Virus record (IMG/VR): IMGVR_UViG_3300031784_000195
Coordinates: 1-24,534 of that record
Length of the DNA: 24,534 nucleotides
From: a virus
Reading direction: 5' to 3' (one strand)
Part shown: positions 6,049 to 24,415 of the stretch, piece after piece
Layout: each line of letters starts with the position of its first letter
Position numbering within the stretch: the first letter of the stretch is position 1
Notes under the pieces: model-generated
What the model saw: only the letters and a program-made list of their open reading frames with translations
What the model was told of the DNA's origin: nothing
Database searches by the model: none
Position numbers and translations under genes: made by a program

Positions 6049-7629
6049 TTAGACAGTTGCTAATCCATCGATGAAGATCTTACCGAAGAATTCTGGACGT
6101 ACGATCTTCTTCGCGTAGCGGGTCATTACGCCTCTACGTGGTGTGAAGTTGTTTGGATCGTATACCAATGGAGTCATGATAAGTGGGATATATGGTGCGT
6201 AGACTGCACCAGTTTCGAGGAAGTTACTTCCACGGAAGCCCATTAACAATGTGTTTTCGGTCATATATGGGTTCTTGTAGATTGTGTAACGGTTTTGGAA
6301 TGAACCAACCTTTGTTACGCCACCTGCAAATTCCATCTTATCACCGTCTGTTGCTGCCATAAATCCTGGGATTGTTTCCAAGATTGTTGCAACGGTTGGT
6401 GAACATACTGCAAAGTTTGCACCACCACGCATTGTGAGTTGGTGAATCTTGTTTGATACCTTTTGCATCTTTTGACCAAGTGTTTGGAACCAAGTCATTG
6501 ATGTCCAAGCTTGACCACTGAGCGTTGCACTTGCTACGAATGCTGAACCGTTCCATACCTTACCAACTTCTGCATTCCAGAATTCTGTTGTGGTTGCGTT
6601 TGCAATCAACATATCAAGAATTTCAAGGTCGATTTCAGTTGAGATGTAGTCACTTAACATTGCTGTTAATTCTGCTTCTGCATCAACTGAGTGGTATGCG
6701 TTCAAGTCTTGTGCAAGTTCTGGTGACCAGACTGCCTTCAACTTACGGGTCTTTGCTACGATTGTTTCTGAACGAAGTTCCAAATCAATTTGTGGAATGT
6801 TCAAGTTTGTTACTGAGTTATCACGATCTTCAAAGTCACCACGGGTGGTGTCTGTTGGTTGCTTGTTGTATTCAACTGCTGACATTGATACCATTGAACC
6901 AAGAGCTGATGTTCCACTTACGATAAGTGTAACGTTTGTTCCGTCATACTTGGTGAATTCTGGAAGAAGTGCACCACCTGCAACGTTTGTTGTTACGCGG
7001 AATGAACGAACTGCGTTGAAGTCAGCGTTTGAGAAACTTACTGCTGGAACAACGAACTTGAAGAATGATGCAAATGATGATGAGTATGTATCGTTGTAGT
7101 TTACATCACCATAACCAACTGCTGAACCTGAACCAATTGCTGGTGCAAGTGTTAATGTTGCATCATTTACTGAGTATGCGTATTCACCAGCACCGTAGAA
7201 ACCACCACGTGGAAGAACACCTGAACCACTGGTTGTACCATAGAGTGAACCACCTGCGGTCTTACCGTTTACTGTGTTTGCATACTTGAAATCCATGAAG
7301 AATACCAAACCTGCTGGTAAGTTCATTGGTTGTACTGATACGAAGTTCTTACTTGCGATTGAACCGAATACCTTACGTACTAATGGAAGTGCGACACCTG
7401 CCCAGTTTTCACCAGCTGAACCTGCACCTGCTGGGTTGGTGGTTGTTGCTTCTGAAAGAAGTTGTGTTGCTTGGTTTTCAAGCATTACTGCCATACCTTG
7501 CTTTTCGTGACCAGTTAAGCCTTCAAGAAGGCCTGACTTTTCCCACTTACCTGCCAATTGGCGGGTTTGTTCAACTACTACGCGGTGTGCTGAACCGGCT
7601 TCGTTGATAAATTCTGATACACCTGACAT
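6049..7629 (-). CDS. 23: Major capsid protein, gp23-like
   Basis: This 526-residue major head protein is similar in length to T4 gp23 (521) and builds the hexamers of an HK97-fold capsid. Key matches are VQPMNLPAGLVFF (about 98-110), the central KTRKLKAVWSPELAQDLNAY helix and VDAEAELTAMLSDYISTEI segment, and the C-terminal TGAVYAPYIPLIMTP. A maturation site LLSE60-A61 fits the (L/I)xE cleavage rule of the T4 protease (T4 gp23 is cut after E65 in LTE-A). The first ten residues, MSGVSEFINE-A, also look like a T4 capsid-targeting leader. TAGGAGATAAATC supplies a strong ribosome binding site, as expected for the most abundant virion protein. The scaffold gene ends 20 nt upstream and a terminator follows. 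Confidence 0.96.
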   Translation of the reverse strand: MSGVSEFINEAGSAHRVVVEQTRQLAGKWEKSGLLEGLTGHEKQGMAVMLENQATQLLSEATTTNPAGAGSAGENWAGVALPLVRKVFGSIASKNFVSVQPMNLPAGLVFFMDFKYANTVNGKTAGGSLYGTTSGSGVLPRGGFYGAGEYAYSVNDATLTLAPAIGSGSAVGYGDVNYNDTYSSSFASFFKFVVPAVSFSNADFNAVRSFRVTTNVAGGALLPEFTKYDGTNVTLIVSGTSALGSMVSMSAVEYNKQPTDTTRGDFEDRDNSVTNLNIPQIDLELRSETIVAKTRKLKAVWSPELAQDLNAYHSVDAEAELTAMLSDYISTEIDLEILDMLIANATTTEFWNAEVGKVWNGSAFVASATLSGQAWTSMTWFQTLGQKMQKVSNKIHQLTMRGGANFAVCSPTVATILETIPGFMAATDGDKMEFAGGVTKVGSFQNRYTIYKNPYMTENTLLMGFRGSNFLETGAVYAPYIPLIMTPLVYDPNNFTPRRGVMTRYAKKIVRPEFFGKIFIDGLATV

Positions 7630-9038: not shown

Positions 9039-9257
9039 TTACCATTCTGAATTCTTTTTCTTCTCTACCTTCTTTTCTTCACGAATACGGCGACGAAGTG
9101 CTTCTTGTTGCTTTAAGATTTTTTTCTTTGACCTCTTGACATAAAACTCACGGCGCTTCACTTCGTTTACTATTTCTGCCTTTTTAACCATTTTAGAGAA
9201 TTGTCGAAGTGCTCTATCTAAATCACCAAGACTGTCCCCTCTTACTTCTACATACAT
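9039..9257 (-). CDS. rpsU: Phage-encoded ribosomal protein bS21 homologue
   Basis: This 72-residue basic protein matches small-subunit ribosomal protein bS21 along its length. The hallmark region is ALRQFSKMVKKAEIVNEVKR followed by REFY (about residues 16-39), corresponding to E. coli [24 protein letters not shown]. A Lys/Arg-rich C-terminal helix follows, as in cellular bS21 (71 residues). bS21 lies near the 3' end of 16S rRNA, close to where mRNA Shine-Dalgarno pairing occurs. It is one of the ribosomal proteins known to be carried by phages. The gene has a very strong binding site (AAGGAGGT) and lies 12 nt after the holin candidate. A plausible role is remodelling host ribosomes for phage messages; that is inference. 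Confidence 0.9.
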   Translation of the reverse strand: MYVEVRGDSLGDLDRALRQFSKMVKKAEIVNEVKRREFYVKRSKKKILKQQEALRRRIREEKKVEKKKNSEW

Positions 9258-10797: not shown

Positions 10798-11166
10798 TTA
10801 TCTCTCCACGTACATTTCTGGTCGTAAGTATCTAAACTTACGCATTAATTCACCTGCTTTTGCATTTGCTTCGTTTTCTGTGTTTGACCCATCTTCACCA
10901 TTCAACTCTTGATTACTGGTTCGTTGTTTGTGATGCACCATCTCGTGAGCCAAGGTTCGTAATACATCCGCAATATGACGATTACCTTTTACGATAATAA
11001 TTTCGTCAGTTTGTGGATTATAGGTTCCAAAGGTTAAATTTTCTTTAGAATAATCACTACCCACAAATTTAATATTGGCAGGTAGTGATTGAAGTTGTAG
11101 CTCTTTTGCGACAAACTTTACAAATTCATTTGTGATATTTTCATTTAGTAAAGCTTTAAGTCGCAT
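10798..11166 (-). CDS. Small HExxH metallopeptidase-like protein
   Basis: This 122-residue protein contains the zinc-peptidase motif HEMVHH within LRTLAHEMVHHKQRT (about residues 71-85). About twenty residues later the helix NTENEANAKAGELM supplies a Glu as plausible third ligand. This fits minimal gluzincin-type domains found in phages. The N-terminus MRLKALLNE-N ends in an LxE motif like that cut by the prohead protease, so it may be a packaged protein. It lies between the EF-hand protein and the KAQQ-type protein with gaps of 6 and 0 nt. Its protein target is unknown; it could process virion or host proteins. Activity is inferred from the motif. Confidence 0.8.
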   Translation of the reverse strand: MRLKALLNENITNEFVKFVAKELQLQSLPANIKFVGSDYSKENLTFGTYNPQTDEIIIVKGNRHIADVLRTLAHEMVHHKQRTSNQELNGEDGSNTENEANAKAGELMRKFRYLRPEMYVER

Positions 11167-11439: not shown

Positions 11440-12027
11440 TTACTTTAGTTCACCTAAAAAGTCATATATCAATGTATCAATACGACTATAGGGGGTGATA
11501 ATTTGACCACCCTTGTTTTCGTTGATAAATGCCCCGTGAGTACTTGGATTACTGACAATATCAAAGCAGATAAGTGAGAAGTCATCACCAACTTCTACAG
11601 TATTCTCACCGATTGGTTTGACAGAACCCATACCACGGGATGAAACACCCAATCGGATATTGTTCTTGATGAGTTCACGAACGATATTGCCTGATGGGGT
11701 AGATAAAATTTCGATATTGCCCTTGACATCATCACCTTCGAACCAGAGTTCGGTGACGTTGCAACAGACGTTTTTTAAGTTGACGACAGGACTTTCTGGA
11801 TGGTCGAGTTCACCAAGTGCACGGCGTTGTGATACGAAGTTATTCTTGTATACCATTGCTTCACGTGATAAGATTTCCTTTGGATATACACGACCATTCT
11901 GGTTCTTCATTTCTGCACGTTGAAGTAAAACATCTTTTAACATCAAAGGTTTACTGATGTCTGCTGCTTCTTTTAATAAAGTAGTGTCATAAGAAATGAC
12001 ATTATATTCTACGAGTAATGTTTGCAT
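11440..12027 (-). CDS. 21: Prohead maturation protease, gp21-like
   Basis: I place the start at MQTLLVEYNVI (12025-12027), which directly follows the upstream stop (TAATATG), giving 195 residues; T4 gp21 has 212. The fold family is the herpesvirus-type assembly protease. Visible motifs are NGRVYP (44-49), GELDHPESP with catalytic His76, and LGVSSRGMG with the likely catalytic Ser129 or Ser130. It cuts scaffold and capsid proteins after (L/I)xE during head maturation, then degrades itself; LLKE20-A21 is a plausible self-processing site. A longer reading from 12069 would overlap the previous gene and has no ribosome binding site. Position upstream of scaffold and capsid genes is as in T4. Confidence 0.92.
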   Translation of the reverse strand: MQTLLVEYNVISYDTTLLKEAADISKPLMLKDVLLQRAEMKNQNGRVYPKEILSREAMVYKNNFVSQRRALGELDHPESPVVNLKNVCCNVTELWFEGDDVKGNIEILSTPSGNIVRELIKNNIRLGVSSRGMGSVKPIGENTVEVGDDFSLICFDIVSNPSTHGAFINENKGGQIITPYSRIDTLIYDFLGELK

Positions 12028-12028
12028 A

Positions 12029-12526
12029 TTATTGCCCACGGATTTCACGGATGCGTGTTGCAAGTCCAAGAAGTCTTGATTCCAACTTCAATAATCCTTG
12101 TTGTGTACGCTTCCATAGTTGTTCACTTGCGATACCTGATTCAGTCTTTAAACGACTATTCATTCTAATAACACGTTCAACTTCTTGTAAATTTCTATTA
12201 AGTTGTGAAATAGCTTCTGCAATCTTTCTGTGTGGTGTCTTTGATGTGTCGTTCTTATATTCGTAATACTTGTTTTCGTTTAATTCCTTAGTGACAATTT
12301 CCATTTTATCGGCTGGACGATTTGCTTCTTCTTCACCCTTTGGAGTTAACTTAAATCCTGTGGTTGCGGTGGCAATATGCTTAGAACGTGCTACACTCTT
12401 TGCTTTATTACCACGAAACGAATATGGAGTTAGGTATCCAGGAACATTTGCTGTCGTTGTCATTTCATCAAGTTTTTTCTTGATAATTTGTCGGACGCGT
12501 TCACGAATTTGTTGTGTTTTGTCCAT
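12029..12526 (-). CDS. Conserved helical protein at the gp67/gp68 position
   Basis: This 165-residue basic protein lies between the portal and protease genes, where T4 encodes prohead core proteins gp67 and gp68. After an N-terminal helix (KTQQIRERVRQIIKKKLDE, ending in an LDE-M cleavage-like site) comes the motif TTTANVPGYLTPYSFRG (about 23-39), which I associate with structural proteins of T4-like phages. The rest (about 95-165) is a coiled helix with conserved-looking Arg/Leu spacing. It is translationally linked to the protease by TAATATG. A role in prohead core or as a virion protein is likely from position, but sequence alone does not prove it. Confidence 0.8.
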   Translation of the reverse strand: MDKTQQIRERVRQIIKKKLDEMTTTANVPGYLTPYSFRGNKAKSVARSKHIATATTGFKLTPKGEEEANRPADKMEIVTKELNENKYYEYKNDTSKTPHRKIAEAISQLNRNLQEVERVIRMNSRLKTESGIASEQLWKRTQQGLLKLESRLLGLATRIREIRGQ

Positions 12527-13471: not shown

Positions 13472-15364
13472 TTAGTTTTCTAGGTCCAAAATATTACTTT
13501 CGTCTAATAAAGAACCAGTTGGTTCTTGGTTTTCCATTAAGACTTTCTTACTTGGCTTTTTTAAGTTTGCAACTAATGCCTGAACTTCTTTAGTAAGTGC
13601 CAACGGAGACTTTCTTTTATCATTTCGTTGTTTACTGACCGTCAACGAACCCATATTTTCTTTGTGTCCGAGTGGGTCACGACCACGTGGGTGACTGTCT
13701 TGACCAAATTTCATTCCTGTTTTTGGACGGCCCATCTTAGCTTCTTCTAATTCAGCTTCTTCATCACCGTATCCTTCCAACTCACTTTCCTCACCACCAT
13801 CTTCTAATGAGGCCAAAATACTATCAACATCAGAAACTTGTTGTTCCTCTTCTTCGGTTGGTGGTGCTTCATCTGTTGCTGGTTGTTCACCTGTAGCACC
13901 TGGTTGTTGTGGTTGTGCTGATTGTTCTAACTGTGCCATACGTTTTACATCTTCTGCAATCTTAGTACGTTCTTCCACGATTTCATCATCAGATAATTCA
14001 AGAATATTATGGTATATCCATTCTTGTGATAACATCTTACTGTTCATAATAGATTCTGCAACCCCAATCTTTTCCTTCCATAAGTTTAACTTTTCTTGTT
14101 CATAGACAATTGATGGGTTGGTCAACGATAATTCAAAGTCTATCAAATCTTCATCAGTAAATCCTTGAACGTATAAGTGGATAATTGCAATCTTGGTGAG
14201 TTCTGACACCATAATACGTTGGATACGTTCTATAGTACGTGCGAAACGTACATCTTGTGCCGCCAATGTTGCCTTACCACTTAAATCTTCTTCGTATCCT
14301 AAGAATGCTTTTGGTACCTTGAATGCTGCCATTAACTTATTACGGAGGTATTCAATATCTTCGATAGCATTAAATTGTAGACCTGGAAGGTTTTGGATGT
14401 CTGTTCCAGAATCTTTACCGCGAACAGGAAGATAAAAATCTTCTGTGATATTTTGCATATTATAACGAAGATTATAATCACCAGTTGCAGGATCTACCAA
14501 TGGTGTTTTCTTCATTCTATCCATAATACGATTCATAAACGTATCGATTTCTGCTGGTGGGATATTACCGATATCAATTAAAATCTTACGCTTATCTGCC
14601 GCTCTCATAATACGATGAATTAACATCGCATCTTCCATCAATTGAAGTTGTTTCCACACACGACGACCACCTTCAACCATTGCCTTACCATATGGAAGGA
14701 AGTTGGTGTCCGAAAGGAGACGGAAGTGAGCTATTTCGTAATTATCGAATTCAGTCTTACCTAACGATAAGAAATCGTTTTCAATCTTGAACTTGACTGA
14801 GAATGGATTACCTGGGTCTTGACCTTCGATACGAATAGTTTCATAGACAGAAAGGGGTAATACATTTACAATTCCAAATTCTGGGTCTATGTCTAGGAAT
14901 AAAAAGAAATCACCATACTTGACCATATTACGAATCCAAGGCCACATATTGAATTCCACATTCAATACATCATAGAATAAGTTATGTAAGATTTCTTGTA
15001 TTTGTGTATTCTTCGAATGAATGGTAAGGAGATTACCAAATTCATCTTTGGTGGTTGATTCGTCAGCATAGATGTCCATCACCGATGAAATAATGGGGTC
15101 ATTATCCATCATATCATAATCACGGAACAATTGCAAGCGGGAACCTTGGAACGCAGCCGCTGCTTCATATCGTCCATGGGCAGAACCATATCCACCCGTC
15201 ATAGAAGAATAGACGCGGTGGTATCTATCAATACCGCGTCTATTGATAAACGATTGAATGTTATCTGTGTCGGCTACTTTAAGTCTTTTTCCACCAACAT
15301 TACGAACTACCGTATTAGTAGAAAATAATTTCTTTAGTCTGCCAAATATGCTGTTATCAGCCAT
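13472..15364 (-). CDS. 20: Portal vertex protein, gp20-like
   Basis: This 630-residue portal subunit forms the dodecameric ring at one head vertex through which DNA enters and leaves. Matches to gp20 include DPIISSVMDIYADESTTKDE (about 87-106), the wing and stem region with HRIMRAADKRKILIDIGNIP, and KVPKAFLGYEEDLSGKATLA followed by DVRFARTIERIQR. It is longer than T4 gp20 (524) because of an acidic Pro/Gln/Glu-rich stretch at about 480-543 and a basic tail. The stretch contains LEE-A, a possible protease site. A strong GAGGGG site precedes the ATG. It lies downstream of small accessory genes and upstream of the protease, as in T4. Confidence 0.94.
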   Translation of the reverse strand: MADNSIFGRLKKLFSTNTVVRNVGGKRLKVADTDNIQSFINRRGIDRYHRVYSSMTGGYGSAHGRYEAAAAFQGSRLQLFRDYDMMDNDPIISSVMDIYADESTTKDEFGNLLTIHSKNTQIQEILHNLFYDVLNVEFNMWPWIRNMVKYGDFFLFLDIDPEFGIVNVLPLSVYETIRIEGQDPGNPFSVKFKIENDFLSLGKTEFDNYEIAHFRLLSDTNFLPYGKAMVEGGRRVWKQLQLMEDAMLIHRIMRAADKRKILIDIGNIPPAEIDTFMNRIMDRMKKTPLVDPATGDYNLRYNMQNITEDFYLPVRGKDSGTDIQNLPGLQFNAIEDIEYLRNKLMAAFKVPKAFLGYEEDLSGKATLAAQDVRFARTIERIQRIMVSELTKIAIIHLYVQGFTDEDLIDFELSLTNPSIVYEQEKLNLWKEKIGVAESIMNSKMLSQEWIYHNILELSDDEIVEERTKIAEDVKRMAQLEQSAQPQQPGATGEQPATDEAPPTEEEEQQVSDVDSILASLEDGGEESELEGYGDEEAELEEAKMGRPKTGMKFGQDSHPRGRDPLGHKENMGSLTVSKQRNDKRKSPLALTKEVQALVANLKKPSKKVLMENQEPTGSLLDESNILDLEN

Positions 15365-15378
15365 AACCCCTCAACTTG

Positions 15379-15729
15379 TTAGTAGATATACAATTCGTCT
15401 ATTGACTTGATAACCATTTCAACGATGTGTGTATCTAATCCCTTAGCTGGTTTCTTCAATAGACTATTTAATGCTTCACGTAAATCACGAGCTGGCATTA
15501 CTACGGTTGCCAATTCGGTCATATGCCATTCTGACATTGTGTTGTAGTTGTATGGTATTTCATTGACCTTGGTGATTCCTGCAAGTAATTCTGCGGTTAG
15601 TTTTGCCAACTTTTCTTCTTGAGCTTCTTTAAGGGTTGGAGTTAACTTTTCAAGTAATGCGACCAAACGCATTGAGTTGATGCGGTTTTCCTTACCTGCT
15701 TCTGTGATTAAATCTGTGAGCTTAATCAT
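15379..15729 (-). CDS. Small helical protein with capsid-targeting-like leader
   Basis: I choose the ATG at 15727-15729 (MIKLTDLITEA), which has AGGGAG upstream; the longer frame from 15813 overlaps the previous gene and has no binding site. The product is 116 residues and mostly helical, with no domain I recognise. The leader MIKLTDLITE-A shares its pattern with three other small genes here and resembles the T4 leader cut by gp21 after (L/I)xE at residue 10. The ATG overlaps the end of the upstream gene by 8 nt and the portal gene follows 14 nt later. It may be a virion-internal protein. Confidence 0.82.
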   Translation of the reverse strand: MIKLTDLITEAGKENRINSMRLVALLEKLTPTLKEAQEEKLAKLTAELLAGITKVNEIPYNYNTMSEWHMTELATVVMPARDLREALNSLLKKPAKGLDTHIVEMVIKSIDELYIY

Positions 15730-16042
15730 GCTTTTTCTCCCTATCCAATGCTGTTCGCATTTTTTTAACATCTTGTGGTTTTGGTGCTGCGTTGATTGCC
15801 CCACCAGGTCCAACTAGTTGTTCATGCTTCTTTTCTACGTACTTCATTAATAATGAATAATACTTCGGGTTTTCTTTCAAGTGTGCTGCTGCGATTTTTG
15901 CAGTCTTGACCACGTTTCCGTTGGTCACATCTTGGTGTTCCAACTCAACATTCATCCCTAAAAAGAATTCTGTTGGATTAAACTTATAACCCATTTTATC
16001 TAATATCTTGTCGGATTGTTCCCGTGAGATTTTCTTTTTCAT
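15722..16042 (-). CDS. Conserved small protein, DUF5661-like
   Basis: The start is placed at MKKKISREQSD (16040-16042) in a TAATATG junction; a longer frame from 16114 would overlap the upstream gene by 70 nt. The product is 106 residues. Its centre, FFLGMNVELEHQDVT then KIAAAHLKENPKYYSLL (about 27-73), fits a small family I recall as DUF5661, marked by VELEH, AxxHLxExPxYY and regularly spaced acidic/His residues. The function of that family is unknown; the His/Glu pattern could bind metal. The C-terminal 30 residues are basic and flexible. It lies in the small-gene cluster before the portal. Confidence 0.8.
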   Translation of the reverse strand: MKKKISREQSDKILDKMGYKFNPTEFFLGMNVELEHQDVTNGNVVKTAKIAAAHLKENPKYYSLLMKYVEKKHEQLVGPGGAINAAPKPQDVKKMRTALDREKKHD

Positions 16043-16043
16043 A

Positions 16044-16613
16044 TTACCAGGTACGACATGCCCAGTAACGAGCTTTTGTTCTTGGACCTGGATTATCACA
16101 ATTGTGTCTTGCACGGAACGACTTACGACGAGAAGGGATATTTTTTTTAATCTTCATTGTCTTTTCACCTCGACGTTTTGCCGAAGTTCCACCATGACCA
16201 AAATTAACCTTCTTAATATTTCCACTCTTTGGGTCTTTGACGAACACCTTAAACTTCTTAACATCACCTCTCATAATCTTACCGAGAGCAACCTTACGAC
16301 CACGATATTCTGCTTCACCGAGTTGATTTTCGTGTAATCCTTCAAGAACTTCAATAAGACATTCTGTGCAGTATTCACCATCGTTTATTTCATCTTCGTG
16401 ACCTGAAACGTGTGTTTCCGAGCCGAATTGGTCACGTTCATTATCTTGGTCTGGCTTGAAATCACTATCCGATGTAACATCACTTTCTGGACGATGATAA
16501 AGTTCTTCTACTGGAACGCAGTTGGGAACCATCTTACCGTTCTTTTCCTTCATACCAACTTGCTTATATCCTTCCCAACAACCTTCGCAAAGAATATCAG
16601 TTAATCTAATCAT
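16044..16613 (-). CDS. Two-module protein with targeting-like leader and basic C-terminal domain
   Basis: The start is at MIRLTDILCEG (16611-16613), with GAGAG upstream, giving 189 residues. Module 1 (11-35) is CWEGYKQVGMKEKNGKMVPN followed by CVPVE, a short Cys-containing motif common in phage proteins. An acidic linker (40-80), then CTEC, leads to LGE100-A101, a second possible prohead-protease site. Module 2 (101-189) is strongly basic (YRGRKVALGKIMRGDVKKFK; GPRTKARYWACRTW at the end). If both sites are cut, a free basic domain of 89 residues would remain in the head. The function is unknown; DNA contact inside the capsid is a reasonable guess. It is coupled to the next gene by TAATATG. 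Confidence 0.82.
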   Translation of the reverse strand: MIRLTDILCEGCWEGYKQVGMKEKNGKMVPNCVPVEELYHRPESDVTSDSDFKPDQDNERDQFGSETHVSGHEDEINDGEYCTECLIEVLEGLHENQLGEAEYRGRKVALGKIMRGDVKKFKVFVKDPKSGNIKKVNFGHGGTSAKRRGEKTMKIKKNIPSRRKSFRARHNCDNPGPRTKARYWACRTW

Positions 16614-16635
16614 TTTCTCTCTCAAAGTCAAGAGT

Positions 16636-16959
16636 TTATTTCTTTTTAAAGGTAGAAACCATTGTTGGTTTTCCACCTGGATTTCCTGCTTTTCTCTTTC
16701 TAACTACAGCCGAACGTTTTTCACCTTTACTCATCGCTGCTGCGGAACGAGCGGGACGACACTTTGGATATTTTGCACTACCACCCTTTCGCTCTTTCTT
16801 ACCAGCCGAAGCACCGCATGGTGGATGTTTTCCTTTTTTATCTTTGCGAGAAATATCTACCCATTTTTGACGAAGCCATTTACCAAGATTACCTTTGGTT
16901 TTATACTTTTCGTCAAGTTCAGTTACAACTTCGTCTAAAAGGTCAGTTAAAAGAATCAT
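16636..16959 (-). CDS. Small Lys/Arg-rich Cys protein with targeting-like leader (DUF5872-like)
   Basis: This 107-residue protein begins MILLTDLLDE-V, the shared leader with an LxE site at residue 10. The body contains LGKWLRQKWVDISRKDKKGK, then PPCG, YPKCRPARSAAAMSKGEKRS and a basic tail ending in FKKK. This layout (KWVDI, PxCG, YPKCxP, EKRSAV) resembles a family I recall as DUF5872, present in many T4-like phages, of unknown function. The paired Cys could bind zinc. Its ATG overlaps the upstream stop (ATGA). Its high charge and leader suggest a packaged, DNA-associated protein; this is inference. Confidence 0.83.
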   Translation of the reverse strand: MILLTDLLDEVVTELDEKYKTKGNLGKWLRQKWVDISRKDKKGKHPPCGASAGKKERKGGSAKYPKCRPARSAAAMSKGEKRSAVVRKRKAGNPGGKPTMVSTFKKK

Positions 16960-17318
16960 TTTAAATATTTTAACTTATAGATAGTGGAATTCACCAACGC
17001 TGAGATTTCATCAACAATATTATTAAGGTCACCATCTTGTGGTAGTCCCTTACGAACACTATCAATATAGGTTGATAATCCAGTAAAATACTTAATTACT
17101 TCATCGTTTTCAAAGTATTGTTTTTGTGGAGTATAACCACGGATAATTCCATAGCGACCTTGGCAAGTTTCTGCGTAGCTATCAACCAACCCTACAACTG
17201 CATCATAATAATCGTTTAATGCTTTGTGAACGGCATACGATGATGTTTGGAGATGAAAGATATGTGCTTGGTCACGACTATTGAATAGTGTGGATAAAAA
17301 CTTGGCTACAGTTTCCAT
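16956..17318 (-). CDS. Dps/ferritin-like four-helix protein (DUF5856-like)
   Basis: This 120-residue helical protein resembles Dps (DNA-protecting ferritin) in its first half. H22, H31, D46 and E50 appear in the Dps ferroxidase order. The spacings from the second His to Asp (15) and Asp to Glu (4) equal those in E. coli Dps (H63, D78, E82); the first loop is three residues shorter. The sequence AHIFHLQTSSYAVHKALNDY parallels the Dps HxxHW...H...LYDE pattern. I recall such phage proteins as DUF5856. Its length is below that of Dps (about 165), so assembly may differ. Iron oxidation or DNA protection in the virion is an inference. Start and stop overlap both neighbours (TAATG, ATGA). Confidence 0.78.
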   Translation of the reverse strand: METVAKFLSTLFNSRDQAHIFHLQTSSYAVHKALNDYYDAVVGLVDSYAETCQGRYGIIRGYTPQKQYFENDEVIKYFTGLSTYIDSVRKGLPQDGDLNNIVDEISALVNSTIYKLKYLK

Positions 17319-17788
17319 TACATTGTTCCCGATGGTGCTGGAACTGCACCTGCTGCTCCAGGAACTTCAGCTGTACCATTTTGGTCCTTTTCACTACTAA
17401 TATATTGTGCAGCAGATTCAGTATATTCCTTAGCTAAAGAAATTTTATTTTGTACCCATTCTGGTAAGTTGGTGTCGTCTGCCAACATATCATGCAACAT
17501 TTGTGCATTTCTAATAATGGTTTGTAATTGATTCTTTGCCATGTCACCTTCGTAATCATATTCACCAGAATCAACTGCATCTTTAGGTCCGATTTCTTCC
17601 TTTTTTTCCATTGACTTACCGATAGCATCACGGCGAGCTTTTAAATACTTGTCTGATGAATCTTTATCACCATCATTATCGATATCACCATCTTCTTTAC
17701 CAACGGCGTCAAGAGCTTCTTTTACAGCTCCAACTGGCTTATCACCAATTCCCTTGATACCAGCTACCAATCCCATAAGTCTAATCAT
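17318..17788 (-). CDS. Acidic helical protein with EF-hand-like loop
   Basis: This 156-residue protein starts MIRLMGLVAG, a degenerate form of the leader seen in neighbours but without the Glu. Residues 35-46 form an Asp-rich calcium-loop motif DIDNDGDKDSSD, followed by KYLKARRDAIGKSM. A second conserved-looking segment, NLPEWVQNKISLAKEYTESA (about 107-126), is one I associate with virion-linked proteins of T4-like phages. The C-terminus is Ala/Pro/Gly-rich and flexible. GGAGAAG precedes the ATG, and its stop overlaps the Dps-like start (TAATG). It is probably a structural or internal protein, without a defined function. Confidence 0.8.
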   Translation of the reverse strand: MIRLMGLVAGIKGIGDKPVGAVKEALDAVGKEDGDIDNDGDKDSSDKYLKARRDAIGKSMEKKEEIGPKDAVDSGEYDYEGDMAKNQLQTIIRNAQMLHDMLADDTNLPEWVQNKISLAKEYTESAAQYISSEKDQNGTAEVPGAAGAVPAPSGTM

Positions 17789-17806
17789 ATTACTTCTCCA
17801 AAGTGT

Positions 17807-18292
17807 TTAGAGGGATTTTTGTCCCTTCTTTTGTGCCACCAAATATCTCTTATACAAATCACGTTTTGCTTTTAACATTTTATCTATTAAATTTACTTTT
17901 CCATCATTATTTACATCTGCGTCCTCTTGACCCATTGGATCACGTCGCTTGTGTGGTATATGATATTCTTTCTTAGTTTTTCTCCAACCACCACCCATAC
18001 TCTTATACTTCTTTGCTGCCCAAAGGTTAGCGTATGCTGATGGATATACTTTGAACTTGGCACGTGCGGCTGCTTTTGCTCGTGCCCACTTTTCAGGACT
18101 GGTTGGTGTGTTCTTTTCTAACAACGTTACAATCTCTTCAGCTTTTTGTAATCGTGGATCTTTAAAATCACTCTCTGTTTCTTTATATCCAAATCCAGGA
18201 TATCCCTCTTCTTGTTCTCCACAACCACAATCAGCTTCGTGGAGACAACCGCAATCCTCAAAAATGTAGGTGTAATATTCTTTATATTCCAT
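17807..18292 (-). CDS. Cys-cluster and EF-hand-loop protein
   Basis: This 161-residue protein has three parts. The N-terminus has a CxC...CxC cluster (C14, C16, C22, C24), likely metal-binding. The middle (about 64-103), TSPEKWARAKAAARAKFKVY then PSAYANLWAAKKYKSMGGGW, is a motif I associate with T4-like marine phages. The C-terminal part has a calcium-loop sequence DVNNDGKVNLID at 126-137 followed by a basic helix. It follows the previous gene through a TAATATG junction. The IFE12-D13 near the N-terminus may be a protease site. No function is known; metal-dependent folding and a virion location are reasonable guesses. Confidence 0.8.
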   Translation of the reverse strand: MEYKEYYTYIFEDCGCLHEADCGCGEQEEGYPGFGYKETESDFKDPRLQKAEEIVTLLEKNTPTSPEKWARAKAAARAKFKVYPSAYANLWAAKKYKSMGGGWRKTKKEYHIPHKRRDPMGQEDADVNNDGKVNLIDKMLKAKRDLYKRYLVAQKKGQKSL

Positions 18293-18293
18293 A

Positions 18294-18554
18294 TTACTTA
18301 CCTTTACTTTTCTTACTATCTATTGCCTTGTTGGTTGATGCTGCCCAAAGGTATGATTTCCAATCATCACCGAACTTATCCTTAAAATAACGGATAGAAC
18401 GCTTGTTCTTTAACAACTTCTTGCCAATACCATCACGCTTTTTGACTTGGGACTTATCCATTTTACGTGGTGGTTCACGGCGAGCTACGGTGCGTTCTGC
18501 CAATTCCGCTTCTAATTCTTCACGAATAATTTCTAAAAGTTCATCTTTGGTCAT
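18294..18554 (-). CDS. Small basic conserved protein
   Basis: This 86-residue protein has an acidic N-terminal helix (MTKDELLEIIREELEAELAE) and a basic remainder with the motif RSIRYFKDKFGDDWKSYLWA (about 53-72). That motif looks familiar from T4-like phages near the terminase, but I know no function. IIRE12-E13 fits the (L/I)xE rule. It lies 3 nt downstream of the 52-residue gene and ends in a TAATATG junction with the Cys-cluster gene. Its charge pattern would suit a nucleic-acid-binding or internal virion protein. Confidence 0.78.
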   Translation of the reverse strand: MTKDELLEIIREELEAELAERTVARREPPRKMDKSQVKKRDGIGKKLLKNKRSIRYFKDKFGDDWKSYLWAASTNKAIDSKKSKGK

Positions 18555-18557
18555 ATC

Positions 18558-18716
18558 TTATACCGGTTTTGATGTTGTTTTCCCACCACGTTTACGCTTT
18601 CTACGTCCAGCGCAATGTGCTTTTTGGCTGAAACCCTTTGGATTACTACAATTTATGGACTTTTTGTATCTGTTTGTCCATTTTTCTGTCAACAAAATAT
18701 CAACTAATTTAATCAT
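18558..18716 (-). CDS. Very small basic protein with targeting-like leader (52 residues)
   Basis: An ATG at 18714-18716 opens a 52-codon frame. The protein begins MIKLVDILLTE-K, the same leader as three neighbours, with the Glu shifted by one. It continues with INCSNPKGFSQKAHCAGRRK and a Lys/Arg-rich tail ending SKPV. The NCxNPKGFSQKAHCxG motif is one I recognise from many T4-like phages; its two Cys and His residues could bind zinc. It has only a weak ribosome binding site but lies 26 nt behind a CTATTTATA motif and 3 nt before the next gene. The conserved motif makes it a convincing gene despite its size. Confidence 0.82.
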   Translation of the reverse strand: MIKLVDILLTEKWTNRYKKSINCSNPKGFSQKAHCAGRRKRKRGGKTTSKPV

Positions 18717-18755: not shown

Positions 18756-20342
18756 TTATCCTAGTAACCACCTAATATCTTCCTTTCCAGTTCCAACTTG
18801 CATCTCGTATGGATTTTGTGCTCTGTCTCTGTTTGTGTAGATGTGACCGACCACATTATACTTGGCCTTGTCTAACGCCATCTTCGTCAGTTCTATACCT
18901 TCCTGACGCAAACGGAGGGCAGTATCACGAACCCACAGACCAATACATAATGCCATTGTCAAGTCATCATTATAACCAGATAATGCTTCTGGTCTACCAT
19001 TCTTCCAAATAAATGTTTCTAATTCAGCACACATTCTTGCTGACCTAATAGTAAAACTATTTTCTAACATATATTCTTTTAATCGTGCAATAACTAACGG
19101 ACGAGTACGTTGTGATGTGGTGAATCCAGGAACCATTTGCCGTTCCTCTGCTCTATATCGTCCTGTCATTTGATGTTCTACGTCAACATATTGTAAATCT
19201 TTGGACATATAAAAGAGATTTTTATATCCACGATCAATAATTTGTTGCACAGCGTTCCATCCTATACTACTATTTTCTGGGATGAGTAGTGCGTCATTAT
19301 ATTCGGTTGCGATAGATACCAACATATTACCAAACTGCTTAGTTTCTACCTTTCCTCTGTATTCTGCTACTTGGGTAGACGATTCTACATCTATTACGTG
19401 AAATGCCGAATAGTCCTCACCATCTCCACGAGCAACGTCAGCACAGACAATGTATGACCGACCAGGTTGTGCATATTCCCATACCCATAAGTTTCCGTCA
19501 AACCCACCTTTGGTAACTGGTTCTTGAACAAACGATGCTTTGTAAAACTCAATAATTTCTGGCGGAACCACCGTATTACCAGAGAAGATAAATGACGCAT
19601 CGTGTTCTTGTGACGCTTGCATTTCACCCATCAGTTCCGTTTGTCTATCACGCCATGCTTGGTCACGTTCTGGATGAACTCGCCAATCTAATAGAATAGG
19701 ATTGAATCCGTTGGTCTTGACCTCCGCTTGTTGCCACATCTTGTGAAAGAAGTTACCCACACCGTTTGGAGTAGAAAGTAATATTGCTTTACCACCCGTT
19801 GATAATGTGGATGATGCTGCCGTCCAGATGATATCTGCGTCATCGATGAATGCAGCTTCATCGAGAATAAGAAGAGACAATGCTTCAGAACGTCCTGCGT
19901 CTGGTGATGATGCCACCGCTTTAATCTGTGAGCCGTTAGAAAATTGGAGTGATAGCTTATTATCCGTGACTACTTCACCACGTAACCATGTTGGGAGGTT
20001 TTGATGCATGAACTTAACTTTGGTAACTAAGTTCTTTGCGGTTTCTTGTTTAGTTGCGATAACAAGGATATTCTTATCTTTATGGAACAACATTAACCAC
20101 AGAGCGTATCCTGCGACCAATGTAGAAATACCAATCTGACGGCCTTTGAGAACGATATTATAATCACTTTTCTCGAAGTCATATAAAGCGTTTTTTTGAT
20201 ATTTGTATAAATCAAACAACACCCGACCACGAATCGGGTGTTGAATGTATGAATATTTTGATAAGAAGTAATCTGGCTGTATTGCACACTTCTTATATTC
20301 TTCTTTAATACGTTCACGTAACTGCTGTGCTGTTGCGTTCAT
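18756..20342 (-). CDS. 17: Large terminase subunit, gp17-like
   Basis: This 528-residue DNA-packaging motor and headful nuclease is a little shorter than T4 gp17 (610). The ATPase domain shows a variant Walker A, KGRQIGIST (66-74; T4 has SRQLGKTT), Walker B LLILDE with catalytic E162, and coupling motif STPNG (190-194). The RNase-H-like nuclease domain has D302 (CADVARGDGEDYS), E356 (IPENSSIG) and D459/D460 (GYNDDLTMA), the usual metal triad. It docks on the portal and pumps DNA into the prohead. GAGGT precedes the ATG. The variant Walker A lacks the usual GK(T/S) Lys after the second Gly (GIST), as sometimes seen when an upstream Arg or Lys takes its role. Confidence 0.95.
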   Translation of the reverse strand: MNATAQQLRERIKEEYKKCAIQPDYFLSKYSYIQHPIRGRVLFDLYKYQKNALYDFEKSDYNIVLKGRQIGISTLVAGYALWLMLFHKDKNILVIATKQETAKNLVTKVKFMHQNLPTWLRGEVVTDNKLSLQFSNGSQIKAVASSPDAGRSEALSLLILDEAAFIDDADIIWTAASSTLSTGGKAILLSTPNGVGNFFHKMWQQAEVKTNGFNPILLDWRVHPERDQAWRDRQTELMGEMQASQEHDASFIFSGNTVVPPEIIEFYKASFVQEPVTKGGFDGNLWVWEYAQPGRSYIVCADVARGDGEDYSAFHVIDVESSTQVAEYRGKVETKQFGNMLVSIATEYNDALLIPENSSIGWNAVQQIIDRGYKNLFYMSKDLQYVDVEHQMTGRYRAEERQMVPGFTTSQRTRPLVIARLKEYMLENSFTIRSARMCAELETFIWKNGRPEALSGYNDDLTMALCIGLWVRDTALRLRQEGIELTKMALDKAKYNVVGHIYTNRDRAQNPYEMQVGTGKEDIRWLLG

Positions 20343-21601: not shown

Positions 21602-24415
21602 TTATGATTTAGCGAATTTGTCTGCTCGGTCCTTTGTACCAAAATATCTTACTTGATTCTTTTTATTCTTGCCACCAAAGTTTCCAGTTTCAGTTTCCCA
21701 CGATTCACCAGGTTTGTAAAATGATGGATCTTTTGGTTCTGGTTTTACTGCTTTTTTTCTCACACCTTTTTGTGGTTCTCCCGCTTTCTTTTTTACTCGT
21801 GGTTTTGCAGCTTTTTTACCACCATGCTGTTGTGTAAGTGCCAATGCTTTTTCTGAGTCCGTAGTAGTTTTAACAATCTTTTTAAATATGTCTGGGTCGA
21901 ACTTACCATATATCATTGTGAATATTTCTTCTTTTGCTTCGTCAGTAATATTTGGATTACCTAACAATGCTCTAACTTGAGTTCCACTAATGTTTTTGCC
22001 TTGAAGTTGTAGTTGCATTTCTGGTGCAACTATGAAATATCCTTTATCTTTAAATCCTTGTGTCGCTGTTTCACCATCATACGGTGTAAAGTATTTACCA
22101 CCCGTTAATCGTTCTGAGTCTTTTTCACTGACTGCAGTTACCACAACTGTATTGTCTGGCATATTACCGGTGATTTCAACTGGTGCGTATGGATTTTTTA
22201 CTTGTACCACCATATCTTCCGGAATATCAAACATTCTTGTGATAATGTCTTTCTTTTCAACAAACCCAAATGGTGATTTGGTTGGGTCGGTCTTATCACT
22301 GGTTGCGATATAAACATTTTCTTTACCAAACTTTTCGACCAAAGCACGATAGATACTGTAATGTCCTGCGTGGAATGGTTGAAAACGACCAGGAAAAATA
22401 GCAATGGTTCGTTTTTCACCAGTTGGTGTAGTTGTTGTTTGTGTGGTTACTTGTGGTTCTTCTGCTGGTTTCTTTTCTGGTTCATCAACAACTTTAGCTT
22501 TACCTCGTTGAAACTTCATCATACCAAGGATTTGATTGACTGGTGCAAATGCTCCAGTAAATTTATATGGTTTACCATTATAGATAAAGACCAACCCTTC
22601 GCTTGGAACCACACGTTCAATACCAAGGTCATCTAACCGTTCTATTTGTTGCTGTAACATTGCCAATTGATTTTCATCACCAGCGTCTTTAATCTTTTCT
22701 ATAGCATCTCTAACTTCTTGTTTTAATTGTGCTGCCATCTCTGGATTATTAGCTCCAAGAGTATTAGTGACGCGTAGTAACGTATCTGCACCAATACGTA
22801 AAAAAATACGTTCTATTGGACGAGTAGCAGCCTTTTGTTTATCTTTAAGTTCGTTTACTTCAAATTGTCTAAATGCCTTTTTCTTTTCAGGATCTTCAAT
22901 ATCTTTGACCCCAAACTTCTTTTCACCCATTGCCCAACGACGAATAAGACCTTCACGTTCTTGTGGAGTCCAATCGATACCCATATTATCAATTTCTCTA
23001 TTCCACCATGCCACCTTGTAATCTTCTAATGTAGAATTATCATCAAGGTCATATTCTTCTTGAATACGTGCAATTTCTGCACCGTATTGTTGTAATCGTT
23101 CTTTATTGCGTACTGTGTCGGCATCATTAAATGTAATAGGTTGTGGACCTGATATGCCAAATGTGCGTTGTTTTTGTGCACTAACTGCTTGAAGTTGTTG
23201 GTCCAAAATTTTTGCATCATCTACATTACGACCAATCTCTTCCCCTGCATCATCATATTCAATAGTTCCATGAAATACCAACACTGGTTTACCGTATGGA
23301 ATAACATTTTTTGTATCTGGGAATATAATTTCTACATTCATAAACTTACGACCATCACCGAACATCGCGTCTCGTTGTTCTTGTGGTAATGCGTCTACTG
23401 CTGCTTGTAAGTCATCTGCTGAGTTTCCAAATGCTTTTTCTATATCACCACGACCAGCAAACATTTGTCGTAAGTCTGCTGCTGGTAATGCGTTCTGTCC
23501 ACGATTTTTGACTTGACCTTTATTACGAGCAAATACCACACGACCATCACGTACACTAAAGGTGATGTTCTGTCCGTCAAGTTTTTCGGTGACTGGACCT
23601 TCTGCATCTAATCCACCGACCAAACCACGTTTTGCCATTTCTTTTAAATCTTTAAACGTCAAACTATCATCTTCGTATGGATGCGCTAAATGTCCTGCTG
23701 CTCCACCCTCTGATAACAATATCCACGGACCATTTGGTACATTACCTTCTAATAACTCGGAGAGATATACGTACTCAATATTTTCGTTTTTCTTATCTCG
23801 TCCATGATCTTTACGTACCAAGCGAGCACCACCATTATGTGGTCCGTTTGGATGATGTACGTCATGGTTCTTCATCTTTGTTTTGCCGTATTTCTTTACT
23901 GCTTTTTTACGGTCGCGGTTACGGGCAACGCGGTCATCCTGAGTCTTTTTAAGGTACTGACGAACTTTTTCGGGGTGACGCTTGTTGTACCTACGCATCC
24001 GTTCCGTACTTGATAGTGCTTCTTTTTGTAAGAATTCATCATCTTGCTCCGGACCAAGTGAATAAGGAAATGCAAATGCGTTATCTACATTTTGTGGCTT
24101 AATTTCATCCACACCACCAGTATCACCAGCACCAGCATCACCACTATCGGTTGGTTCCGTTGGTGGTGTTGATGGTTCTTCTTTGGGTTGTTCACCAGTT
24201 TTAATTACACGAGGATACAATGGATAGAAAAATCCATAACGTTTAATCTTCTCTTTTGCCTTCTTACGCTTCTTCTTTGCTTCTTCCAACGTATCAGTCG
24301 TGGTAATAGCTAATTCTTCCACAAGTTCTGGGGCAAGTTTCTCTACCAAGAAGTTGTGTTGCTCAACATAATCGTCAAGTGCTACTATTCGTTCAAATAA
24401 TTTGTTTATGTTCAT
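21602..24415 (-). CDS. Multidomain protein: HNH-like patch, ligase-type nucleotidyltransferase and NMNAT-like domain
   Basis: This 937-residue protein has several parts. Residues 1-110 are helical then Pro/Glu-rich and disordered. 138-210 are very basic and contain an HNH-like patch (NHDVHHPNGPHNGG, then RKDHGRDKKN). 217-250 hold LSEGGAAGHLAHPYED. 250-621 form a covalent nucleotidyltransferase: motif I K278-LDG, NVEIIFPDT near 360, EGLVF 606-610, and KPYKFTG 615-621. A helical insertion fills about 400-590. 668-850 form a Rossmann nucleotidylyltransferase with GRFQPFHAGH (HxGH 682-685) and ISGTQVR (809-815). A basic linker leads to a C-terminal module (GNFGGKNKKNQVRYFGTKDR). Adenylylation plus NAD synthesis in one chain is a plausible combined role. 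No OB-fold is evident, so classical DNA ligation is uncertain. Confidence 0.85.
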   Translation of the reverse strand: MNINKLFERIVALDDYVEQHNFLVEKLAPELVEELAITTTDTLEEAKKKRKKAKEKIKRYGFFYPLYPRVIKTGEQPKEEPSTPPTEPTDSGDAGAGDTGGVDEIKPQNVDNAFAFPYSLGPEQDDEFLQKEALSSTERMRRYNKRHPEKVRQYLKKTQDDRVARNRDRKKAVKKYGKTKMKNHDVHHPNGPHNGGARLVRKDHGRDKKNENIEYVYLSELLEGNVPNGPWILLSEGGAAGHLAHPYEDDSLTFKDLKEMAKRGLVGGLDAEGPVTEKLDGQNITFSVRDGRVVFARNKGQVKNRGQNALPAADLRQMFAGRGDIEKAFGNSADDLQAAVDALPQEQRDAMFGDGRKFMNVEIIFPDTKNVIPYGKPVLVFHGTIEYDDAGEEIGRNVDDAKILDQQLQAVSAQKQRTFGISGPQPITFNDADTVRNKERLQQYGAEIARIQEEYDLDDNSTLEDYKVAWWNREIDNMGIDWTPQEREGLIRRWAMGEKKFGVKDIEDPEKKKAFRQFEVNELKDKQKAATRPIERIFLRIGADTLLRVTNTLGANNPEMAAQLKQEVRDAIEKIKDAGDENQLAMLQQQIERLDDLGIERVVPSEGLVFIYNGKPYKFTGAFAPVNQILGMMKFQRGKAKVVDEPEKKPAEEPQVTTQTTTTPTGEKRTIAIFPGRFQPFHAGHYSIYRALVEKFGKENVYIATSDKTDPTKSPFGFVEKKDIITRMFDIPEDMVVQVKNPYAPVEITGNMPDNTVVVTAVSEKDSERLTGGKYFTPYDGETATQGFKDKGYFIVAPEMQLQLQGKNISGTQVRALLGNPNITDEAKEEIFTMIYGKFDPDIFKKIVKTTTDSEKALALTQQHGGKKAAKPRVKKKAGEPQKGVRKKAVKPEPKDPSFYKPGESWETETGNFGGKNKKNQVRYFGTKDRADKFAKS

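Follow-up and report, generated by a model that had tools for sequence, protein, structure and literature searches.

Capsid-targeting leaders are known from phage T4, where Mullaney and Black reportedly defined a capsid-targeting sequence common to IPI, IPII, IPIII and Alt. According to passages in PMC9026906, targeting by the IPIII leader is governed by its residues 4 and 7 and processing by its residues 8 and 10, the protease gp21 cleaves after L/I-X-E, and an Asp at position 10 of that leader allows targeting while inhibiting processing. Both the tag and what it does have been published, as has the proposal that T4-like phages package varied proteins with its help (relevant parts of PMC9026906 and PMC3012670). 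Here we analyze a window of 24,534 nucleotides, the whole of IMG/VR virus record IMGVR_UViG_3300031784_000195, a 24.5-kb fragment of an uncultivated T4-superfamily phage, in which four small genes located between gp17 and gp20 begin with nearly the same short leader. Judged by the portal, the named phages closest to this one are Microcystis phage Mel-JY01 (49%) and Flavobacterium phage immuto (45%), and close relatives of the window are common in IMG/VR (at least 80). We put a probability of roughly 0.86 on the reading that the four genes share a capsid-targeting sequence of the T4 type, cut by the phage's own gp21-type protease and serving as a swappable tag on unrelated bodies. The principle is known from T4; the proteins that carry the tag here are new. 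The four genes, named below by their first coordinate, are as follows (an arrow marks the predicted cut):

15379-15729, minus strand: gene adjoining the portal gene; leader MIKLTDLITE↓A (15700-15729), then a 106-residue body predicted to be a helical bundle
16044-16613, minus strand: two-module protein, CW (CWEGYKQVG..VPNC) followed by RARHNC at the C-terminal end; leader MIRLTDILCE↓G (16584-16613); matches to phrog_7595 and phrog_9737
16636-16959, minus strand: DUF5872-like protein; leader MILLTDLLDE↓V (16930-16959); net charge +23; Pfam DUF5872 at E 0.0061 (below the cut-off), phrog_23735 at 1e-17
18558-18716, minus strand: 52-residue protein; leader MIKLVDILLTE↓K (18684-18716); basic 41-residue body CSNPKGFSQKAHCAGRRKR, net charge +14

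An earlier note on this DNA had pointed to these near-identical starts at 18716, 16959, 16613 and 15729, and all four are present on the minus strand. It had also called the bodies otherwise unrelated, and BLASTP among them finds nothing better than E 0.25.

To describe the leaders we used a strict grammar that requires a hydrophobic residue (LIVFYM, a set of our own choosing) at positions 4 and 7, L or I at position 8 and E at position 10. These positions come from the T4 work and are independent of the window, but they were consulted after the leaders had been seen. Four of the 31 genes in the window satisfy the strict grammar (15379, 16044, 16636 and the capsid protein gene), against 0.064 expected when residues 2-15 are shuffled (P = 2.4e-7). 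The leader of 18558 is one residue longer (E11) and falls outside the strict grammar; it fits with a one-residue shift that places the motif at 9-11. The start pattern proposed in the earlier note picks out exactly the four genes among the 31, and across the relatives' loci plus the window, which are related loci, it matches 112 of 1187 called genes compared to 16.3 after shuffling, with a maximum of 27 in 200 shuffles.

The phase of the glutamate is found across phages that encode gp21. In seven complete gp21-bearing phages the strict grammar with Glu10 occurs in 21 of 1420 called genes, compared to a mean of 2.8 when the glutamate is placed at other positions from 8 to 30 (Poisson 4e-12), and the signal persists when T4 is left out (17 of 1167 genes versus 2.2 per other position). 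Eight complete phages that lack gp21, several of them mutually related, give 1 match in 499 genes (Fisher p 0.011 versus the gp21-bearing set). Within the window's own group, 676 de-duplicated genes show a peak at E10 (73). Genes were called with a script of our own; in a test stretch of Mel-JY01 its calls agreed exactly with 37 of the 43 annotated genes, and it did not pick up the 52-residue gene of the window.

Applied to T4 as a calibration, the strict rule returns four genes: IpII, IpIII, gp24, which is annotated as ‘cleaved by gp21’, and the hypothetical gp61.1. Three of the four strict matches are therefore known substrates. IpI, Alt and gp23 have sites of another form and escape the rule. 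A loose rule with E anywhere at 8-13 adds five T4 genes (Alt, gp2, e.5, DNA ligase and RNase H); we dropped it for the published positions, as its enrichment is about twofold in phages with and without gp21 alike. The remaining strict match, gp61.1 (L371; AF158101 18966-19130), annotated as hypothetical, starts MKTFKEFIKE and matches the grammar exactly, which makes it a candidate for an unrecognised T4 head protein.

Alignments of the gene families show that the leader is retained while the bodies drift. For the 15379 family we aligned 47 sequences chosen by homology, length and an ATG start and not by leader; only M1, E10, N56 and Y60 are invariant and L4 is kept in at least 90%, even though identity to the window falls as low as 27%. 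The full grammar is present in 45 of 46 distinct relatives of this gene and in 32 of 34 distinct relatives of 16636. The 18558 family keeps the full grammar in 14 of 29 distinct relatives and hydrophobic-x-E in 27, with some starts doubtful; by eye, a Glu lies one or two residues ahead of the Trp of this module in 26 of 29 distinct contexts, each time with a hydrophobic residue two positions before it. In the 16044 family the strict grammar is found in only 13 of 44 distinct relatives, whereas hydrophobic-x-E within the first 14 residues is kept in 43; many of these relatives have a short form of the leader, such as MENLTE↓ACW. The fixed leader leucine is encoded by four codons, and only this codon variety is informative, the compared sequences having been pre-selected for the leader.

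In other phages the same bodies stand behind differently worded leaders. S-SM2 has MKTLKQFLKE at the start of a protein whose end is the 18558 body, and in C48C1 MKKFKQYIDE begins a protein carrying the RARHNC module. The GRYADASG domain follows MVNLTSLLLSE in a relative of the window, versus MKKFSAFLTE or MKSFFQFLSE in S-RIM8 and S-SM2. From 80 IMG/VR relatives of 16044 we obtained 70 distinct complete genes, 29 with the grammar when E is allowed at 8-13 and 13 with strict Glu10, in wordings that include MKTLRDYFAE, MKSLKDYLAE, MKTFQEYLKE and MKINEFLSE; a phrog_207 protease is found in 18 of the 80 records, many of which are fragments. By comparison, none of 13 module genes in Pelagibacter, Roseobacter and lake phages without gp21 has the grammar. 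Because the same bodies bear other wordings in gp21 phages and the grammar is absent from the module genes of gp21-less phages, we consider it most likely that the leader is an exchangeable tag for targeting and cleavage.

The protease and two of its candidate substrates can be read from the same strand:

11440-12027, minus strand: gp21-type prohead protease; phrog_207 at 1.3e-48, Protein Data Bank (PDB) entry 5jbl (prohead core protein protease) at 1.2e-14
6049-7629, minus strand: major capsid protein gp23; phrog_138 at 3.9e-70; leader-like start at 7600-7629
12029-12526, minus strand: candidate core protein; conserved site LDE↓MTTT at residue 21, propeptide 12464-12526

The phage was said in the earlier note to encode its own gp21-like protease, and it does, 3-7 kb from the leader genes. 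Aligned with T4 gp21, this protein retains GELxHP and SSRGxGS, and its N-terminus, LLVE↓Y, resembles LLIE↓T of T4. The capsid protein offers a site for comparison: its maturation site at E60 (codon 7450-7452), LLSE↓ATTT, aligns with T4 E65, and a Glu occupies the T4-homologous position in all 20 distinct capsid proteins aligned, the window's own having been read directly. This L-x-E site suggests that the window's protease most likely cuts L-x-E, the same motif that ends the leader. Of 78 relatives of the candidate core protein, 76 have x-[ST]-T directly after the Glu, and Leu lies two positions before the Glu in all 31 distinct contexts listed. The capsid protein does begin MSGVSEFINE, as had been quoted, but we reject processing at that N-terminus: 2 of 13 close relatives have Asp in place of Glu10, the T4-homologous site is E60, and the N-terminal stretch is missing from the T4 and kyanovirus rows of the alignment. 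On sequence grounds, the proposal that the leader is a targeting and cleavage signal is well supported by the grammar, the Glu10 phase, conservation, the exchange of bodies and the contrast between phages with and without gp21.

By analogy with T4, the hydrophobic face of the leader (residues 4 and 7) would dock the protein on the prohead core. The gp21-type protease would then cut after L/I-x-E at positions 8-10, before DNA enters the head, and the small, mostly basic body would be released, retained inside the head and ejected into the host along with the DNA. In other phages the same body comes with a differently worded leader or with no leader. That the proteins are packaged, cut within the particle and ejected is inferred from T4. 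An AlphaFold2 model of the 15379 protein (mean predicted local distance difference test score, pLDDT, 87.6) shows a short helix at residues 4-10, a low-confidence hinge at 10-12, which is the sole stretch of at least three residues below 50, and a confident helical body. Searched against the PDB, the fold of the body matches nothing at E 0.001 or below, and tblastn with the gene finds no match in named phages. The model of the 16044 protein was too poor for use (mean pLDDT 53).

It is unlikely, in our estimation, that the leader brings these proteins to the core as structural scaffold, to be degraded and expelled and not to serve as cargo for the host. The T4 core proteins gp22, gp67 and gp68 are cut up and mostly lost in this way (as stated in parts of PMC9026906), and the 15379 body, near-neutral, helical and encoded next to the portal gene, would suit such a role. 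However, the tagged bodies have their site at the extreme N-terminus, as in T4 internal proteins, and three of the four are basic (+7, +23 and +14), which fits DNA association and would be expected of DNA-associated proteins.

Leader genes also cluster in the genomes of the window's group. On large contigs of ten relatives, some of them near-duplicates, the leader (E at 9-11) is carried by 30 of the 168 genes that lie within the gp17-gp23 interval and by 9 of the 494 beyond it; six of the nine lie just past the interval, in three contigs without a located terminase or capsid anchor. Three further genes of the window have starts of related form:

10798-11166, minus strand: metallopeptidase-like protein; leader MRLKALLNE (11140-11166), as the earlier note had it; weak Peptidase_M78 match below the cut-off
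17318-17788, minus strand: degenerate copy MIRLMGLVAG (17759-17788), with the targeting positions retained and the Glu absent; EF-hand/dockerin-like motif in the body (by eye)
17807-18292, minus strand: possible aromatic leader MEYKEYYTYIFE (18257-18292), grammar with E at 12; YPSAYAN motif; weak dockerin-like match (Dockerin_1 at E 0.0019, below the cut-off)

Among distinct relatives of the metallopeptidase-like protein within the length range, hydrophobic-x-E is found in the first 14 residues of 17 of 17 and the full grammar in 14 of 17. Starts among relatives of 17807 include MKYRDFFPE and MKYTDFFSE. The neighboring gene 18294-18554 and its relatives have a second common start, MTKDELLEIIREE or MKKSELxxIIxEE, with the same spacing and Glu at 12.

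Several observations weigh against a dedicated packaging tag. The degenerate start proposed at 17788 is there, but its family mostly lacks a cut site, with hydrophobic-x-E in the first 14 residues of only 5 of 25 distinct relatives; 41 of the 70 distinct complete relatives of 16044 are without the grammar; and bare hydrophobic-x-E occurs in 3 of the 13 gp21-less module genes, in two of them within the module. The 676 genes of the window's group show smaller peaks at E12 (36) and E7 (32), the latter counting Met1 as hydrophobic. The loose rule separates poorly (56 of 1420 versus 22.5 shuffled with gp21, 8 of 499 versus 4.0 without) and barely exceeds shuffles in two of four Kyanoviridae (S-SM2, 5 versus 2.9; S-H9-1, 4 versus 2.4). 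Equal frequency in early genes, a difficulty that the earlier note had raised for its own proposal, is not borne out overall by the ten-contig count, but RecA-like (UvsX) genes of the three cyanophages S-RIM8, S-SM2 and S-H9-1 match some form of the rule, and that of S-H9-1 is a strict match, the only one in that phage. In both isolates, moreover, leader genes are scattered (Mel-JY01, 1 of 12 genes inside the interval and 8 of 204 outside; immuto, 0 of 9 and 6 of 203), so that clustering characterizes the window's group and not the tag.

Such matches are what a generic amphipathic N-terminal helix might produce, one that docks on a membrane or partner or reflects start-codon context, with Glu10 present by habit and not as a protease site. 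Loose forms of the rule take in the UvsX genes as well as T4 DNA ligase and RNase H, and the loose rule lies about twofold above shuffles even where gp21 is lacking. We nevertheless hold this account to be very improbable, since the strict grammar peaks at Glu10 in phages with gp21 and not in those without, Glu10 stays invariant at 27% body identity, the fixed leucine uses varied codons, and the same bodies lack the grammar in gp21-less phages. Least credible of all is that the leaders are a duplicated or recombining 5' gene end of common ancestry, kept by recombination and now functionless: the wordings MIKL, MIRL and MILL are close and ATG ATT starts all four genes, but the remaining leader codons and the upstream DNA are unlike among the four, E10 and L4 are conserved, and distant gp21 phages keep the key positions in other wordings.

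The swappable tag may bear on cyanophage proteins in which the same modules are joined. In S-RIM8 a 591-residue protein between gp16 and gp17 combines DUF5872-like, YPSAYAN and CW modules in one chain, and S-SM2 has a multidomain protein of 708 residues, whereas in the window the modules are separate small genes. Among 39 distinct complete relatives of the S-RIM8 protein, hydrophobic-x-x-[FY]-x-E occurs 30 times versus 12 in shuffles, and 18 of the 30 lie within five residues ahead of a CW module, a zone that makes up 1.2% of residues. Six further motifs stand directly ahead of a CW-like variant (CWxxHKKVGMKMKGG), and two of these proteins contain an exact internal leader-like stretch, KSFGKFIAE↓A or KSFGKFMAE↓A. 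Ahead of the DUF5872 module, hydrophobic-x-E is found in 16 of 16 distinct contexts, compared to a fraction of 0.239 when every Glu of these proteins is counted; the search pattern fixed the Glu and left the position two residues ahead of it free, a few contexts present two Glu as alternatives, and the contexts, being related, are not independent. Among CW contexts there are exceptions, such as TNEAKKCW.

These data suggest that tagged genes were fused and that their leaders turned into internal cut sites. More broadly, we can imagine, with somewhat less than even confidence, that T4-superfamily phages infecting aquatic bacteria draw on a common, mobile set of head-cargo modules, which are small, contain cysteines, are often basic and are plugged in through short gp21 signals. 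The modules would mostly be separate leader-bearing genes in the window's group; cyanophages would fuse them, with the old leaders as internal cut sites (FQQFQE↓KCW, FEEFRE↓SW, phi-x-E↓NKSGD), which would make the long proteins encoded between gp16 and gp17 polyproteins that the head protease processes into a cocktail delivered with the DNA. In the Pelagibacter phages HTVC023P, HTVC106P and HTVC027P, a YPSAYAN gene immediately precedes a DUF5872 gene, the two being separate and leaderless; in S-RIM8 both modules lie within one protein.

On the minus strand of the window, the terminase gene is followed by the small-gene cassette and then by the genes for the portal, the gp21-type protease, the core proteins, the capsid protein and the tail; the cassette is flanked by:

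18756-20342, minus strand: large terminase gp17 (context); BLASTP matches to annotated terminase genes of Mel-JY01 (15768) and immuto (119017)
13472-15364, minus strand: portal gp20 (context); 49% to Mel-JY01 and 45% to immuto, where it is annotated as capsid assembly protein Gp20

One cassette gene without a leader, 16956-17318, matches DUF5856 (3.7e-23) and phrog_858, a starvation-inducible transcriptional regulator (3.7e-24); its product is possibly Dps-like, which is a guess. Between the scaffold and protease genes, 9039-9257 encodes a ribosomal protein S21-like product (phrog_21469, 4.1e-9), and Mel-JY01 has an annotated RpsU gene at the corresponding place. At 21602-24415 lies a cytidylyltransferase-like protein of 937 residues (phrog_395), in which, by eye only, the internal leader-like stretches YLSELLE and WILLSE precede a nucleotidyltransferase-like region.

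Both isolates have repeated starts of their own. Four immuto genes (NC_055915; 1803, 103806, 117631 and 118632) share, by eye, a variable second start of about 23 residues, M-x-N-F-D-L-K-K-F-L-x-E-N-K-L-T-x-N-S-x-L-L-x-E, which is perhaps another class of head leader; two of the four lie directly ahead of the terminase gene. Mel-JY01 has three paralogs (60276-60926, 60923-61105 and 62056-62718) that start MIKLKSLLQE, MIKLKSLLKE or MIKLMSLVTE and continue with ISDRVWH. We do not claim an ADP-ribosyltransferase here, as the single paralog examined gave no Pfam or convincing PDB match; PF03496 had no match in 16 contigs, where its controls likewise gave none.

Calibrated on T4, the four-position rule allows candidate head cargo to be listed from sequence alone in T4-related phages, much of it annotated as hypothetical, and predicts exact mature N-termini. 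It also links the DUF5872, CW, RARHNC and NPKGFSQ module families to one predicted role, as packaged head proteins. In searches of one open-access library, mostly at the level of listings, we found nothing in print on tagged cargo in the window's group or on gp21-cut cyanophage polyproteins.

Among described systems, the ejection proteins of phiKZ-like phages and SPN3US resemble the window in that many head proteins have propeptides cut after a short Glu-ending motif, and in that identical N-termini occur on two diverged paralogs. Unlike the window's leaders, several of those propeptides are more than 100 residues long, and cleavage follows A-x-E or S/A-x-E (portions of PMC5694885 and PMC9026906). 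The polyvalent proteins of Iyer et al. (2017) are phage proteins of several domains for which packaging and delivery are predicted and whose domains may be freed by proteolysis; they use embedded peptidase domains, whereas the cyanophage module proteins would use the phage's own gp21 (parts of PMC5512222). The T4 internal proteins are another close counterpart. They share with the window a ten-residue N-terminal leader with hydrophobic residues at 4 and 7, L/I at 8 and Glu at 10, a gp21-type protease in the same phage, and diverse bodies behind one tag. The wording differs (TYQEF in T4, LTDLL in the window), as does the location, with T4 ipI-III mapping to 65-74 kb, at a distance from the head genes (102-109 kb), and the window's tagged genes between gp17 and gp20. 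No T4 internal-protein family appears among the Pfam or PHROG matches of the window bodies, and descent from IPI-III is not indicated; judged by their leaders, the window's proteins would work like T4 internal proteins.

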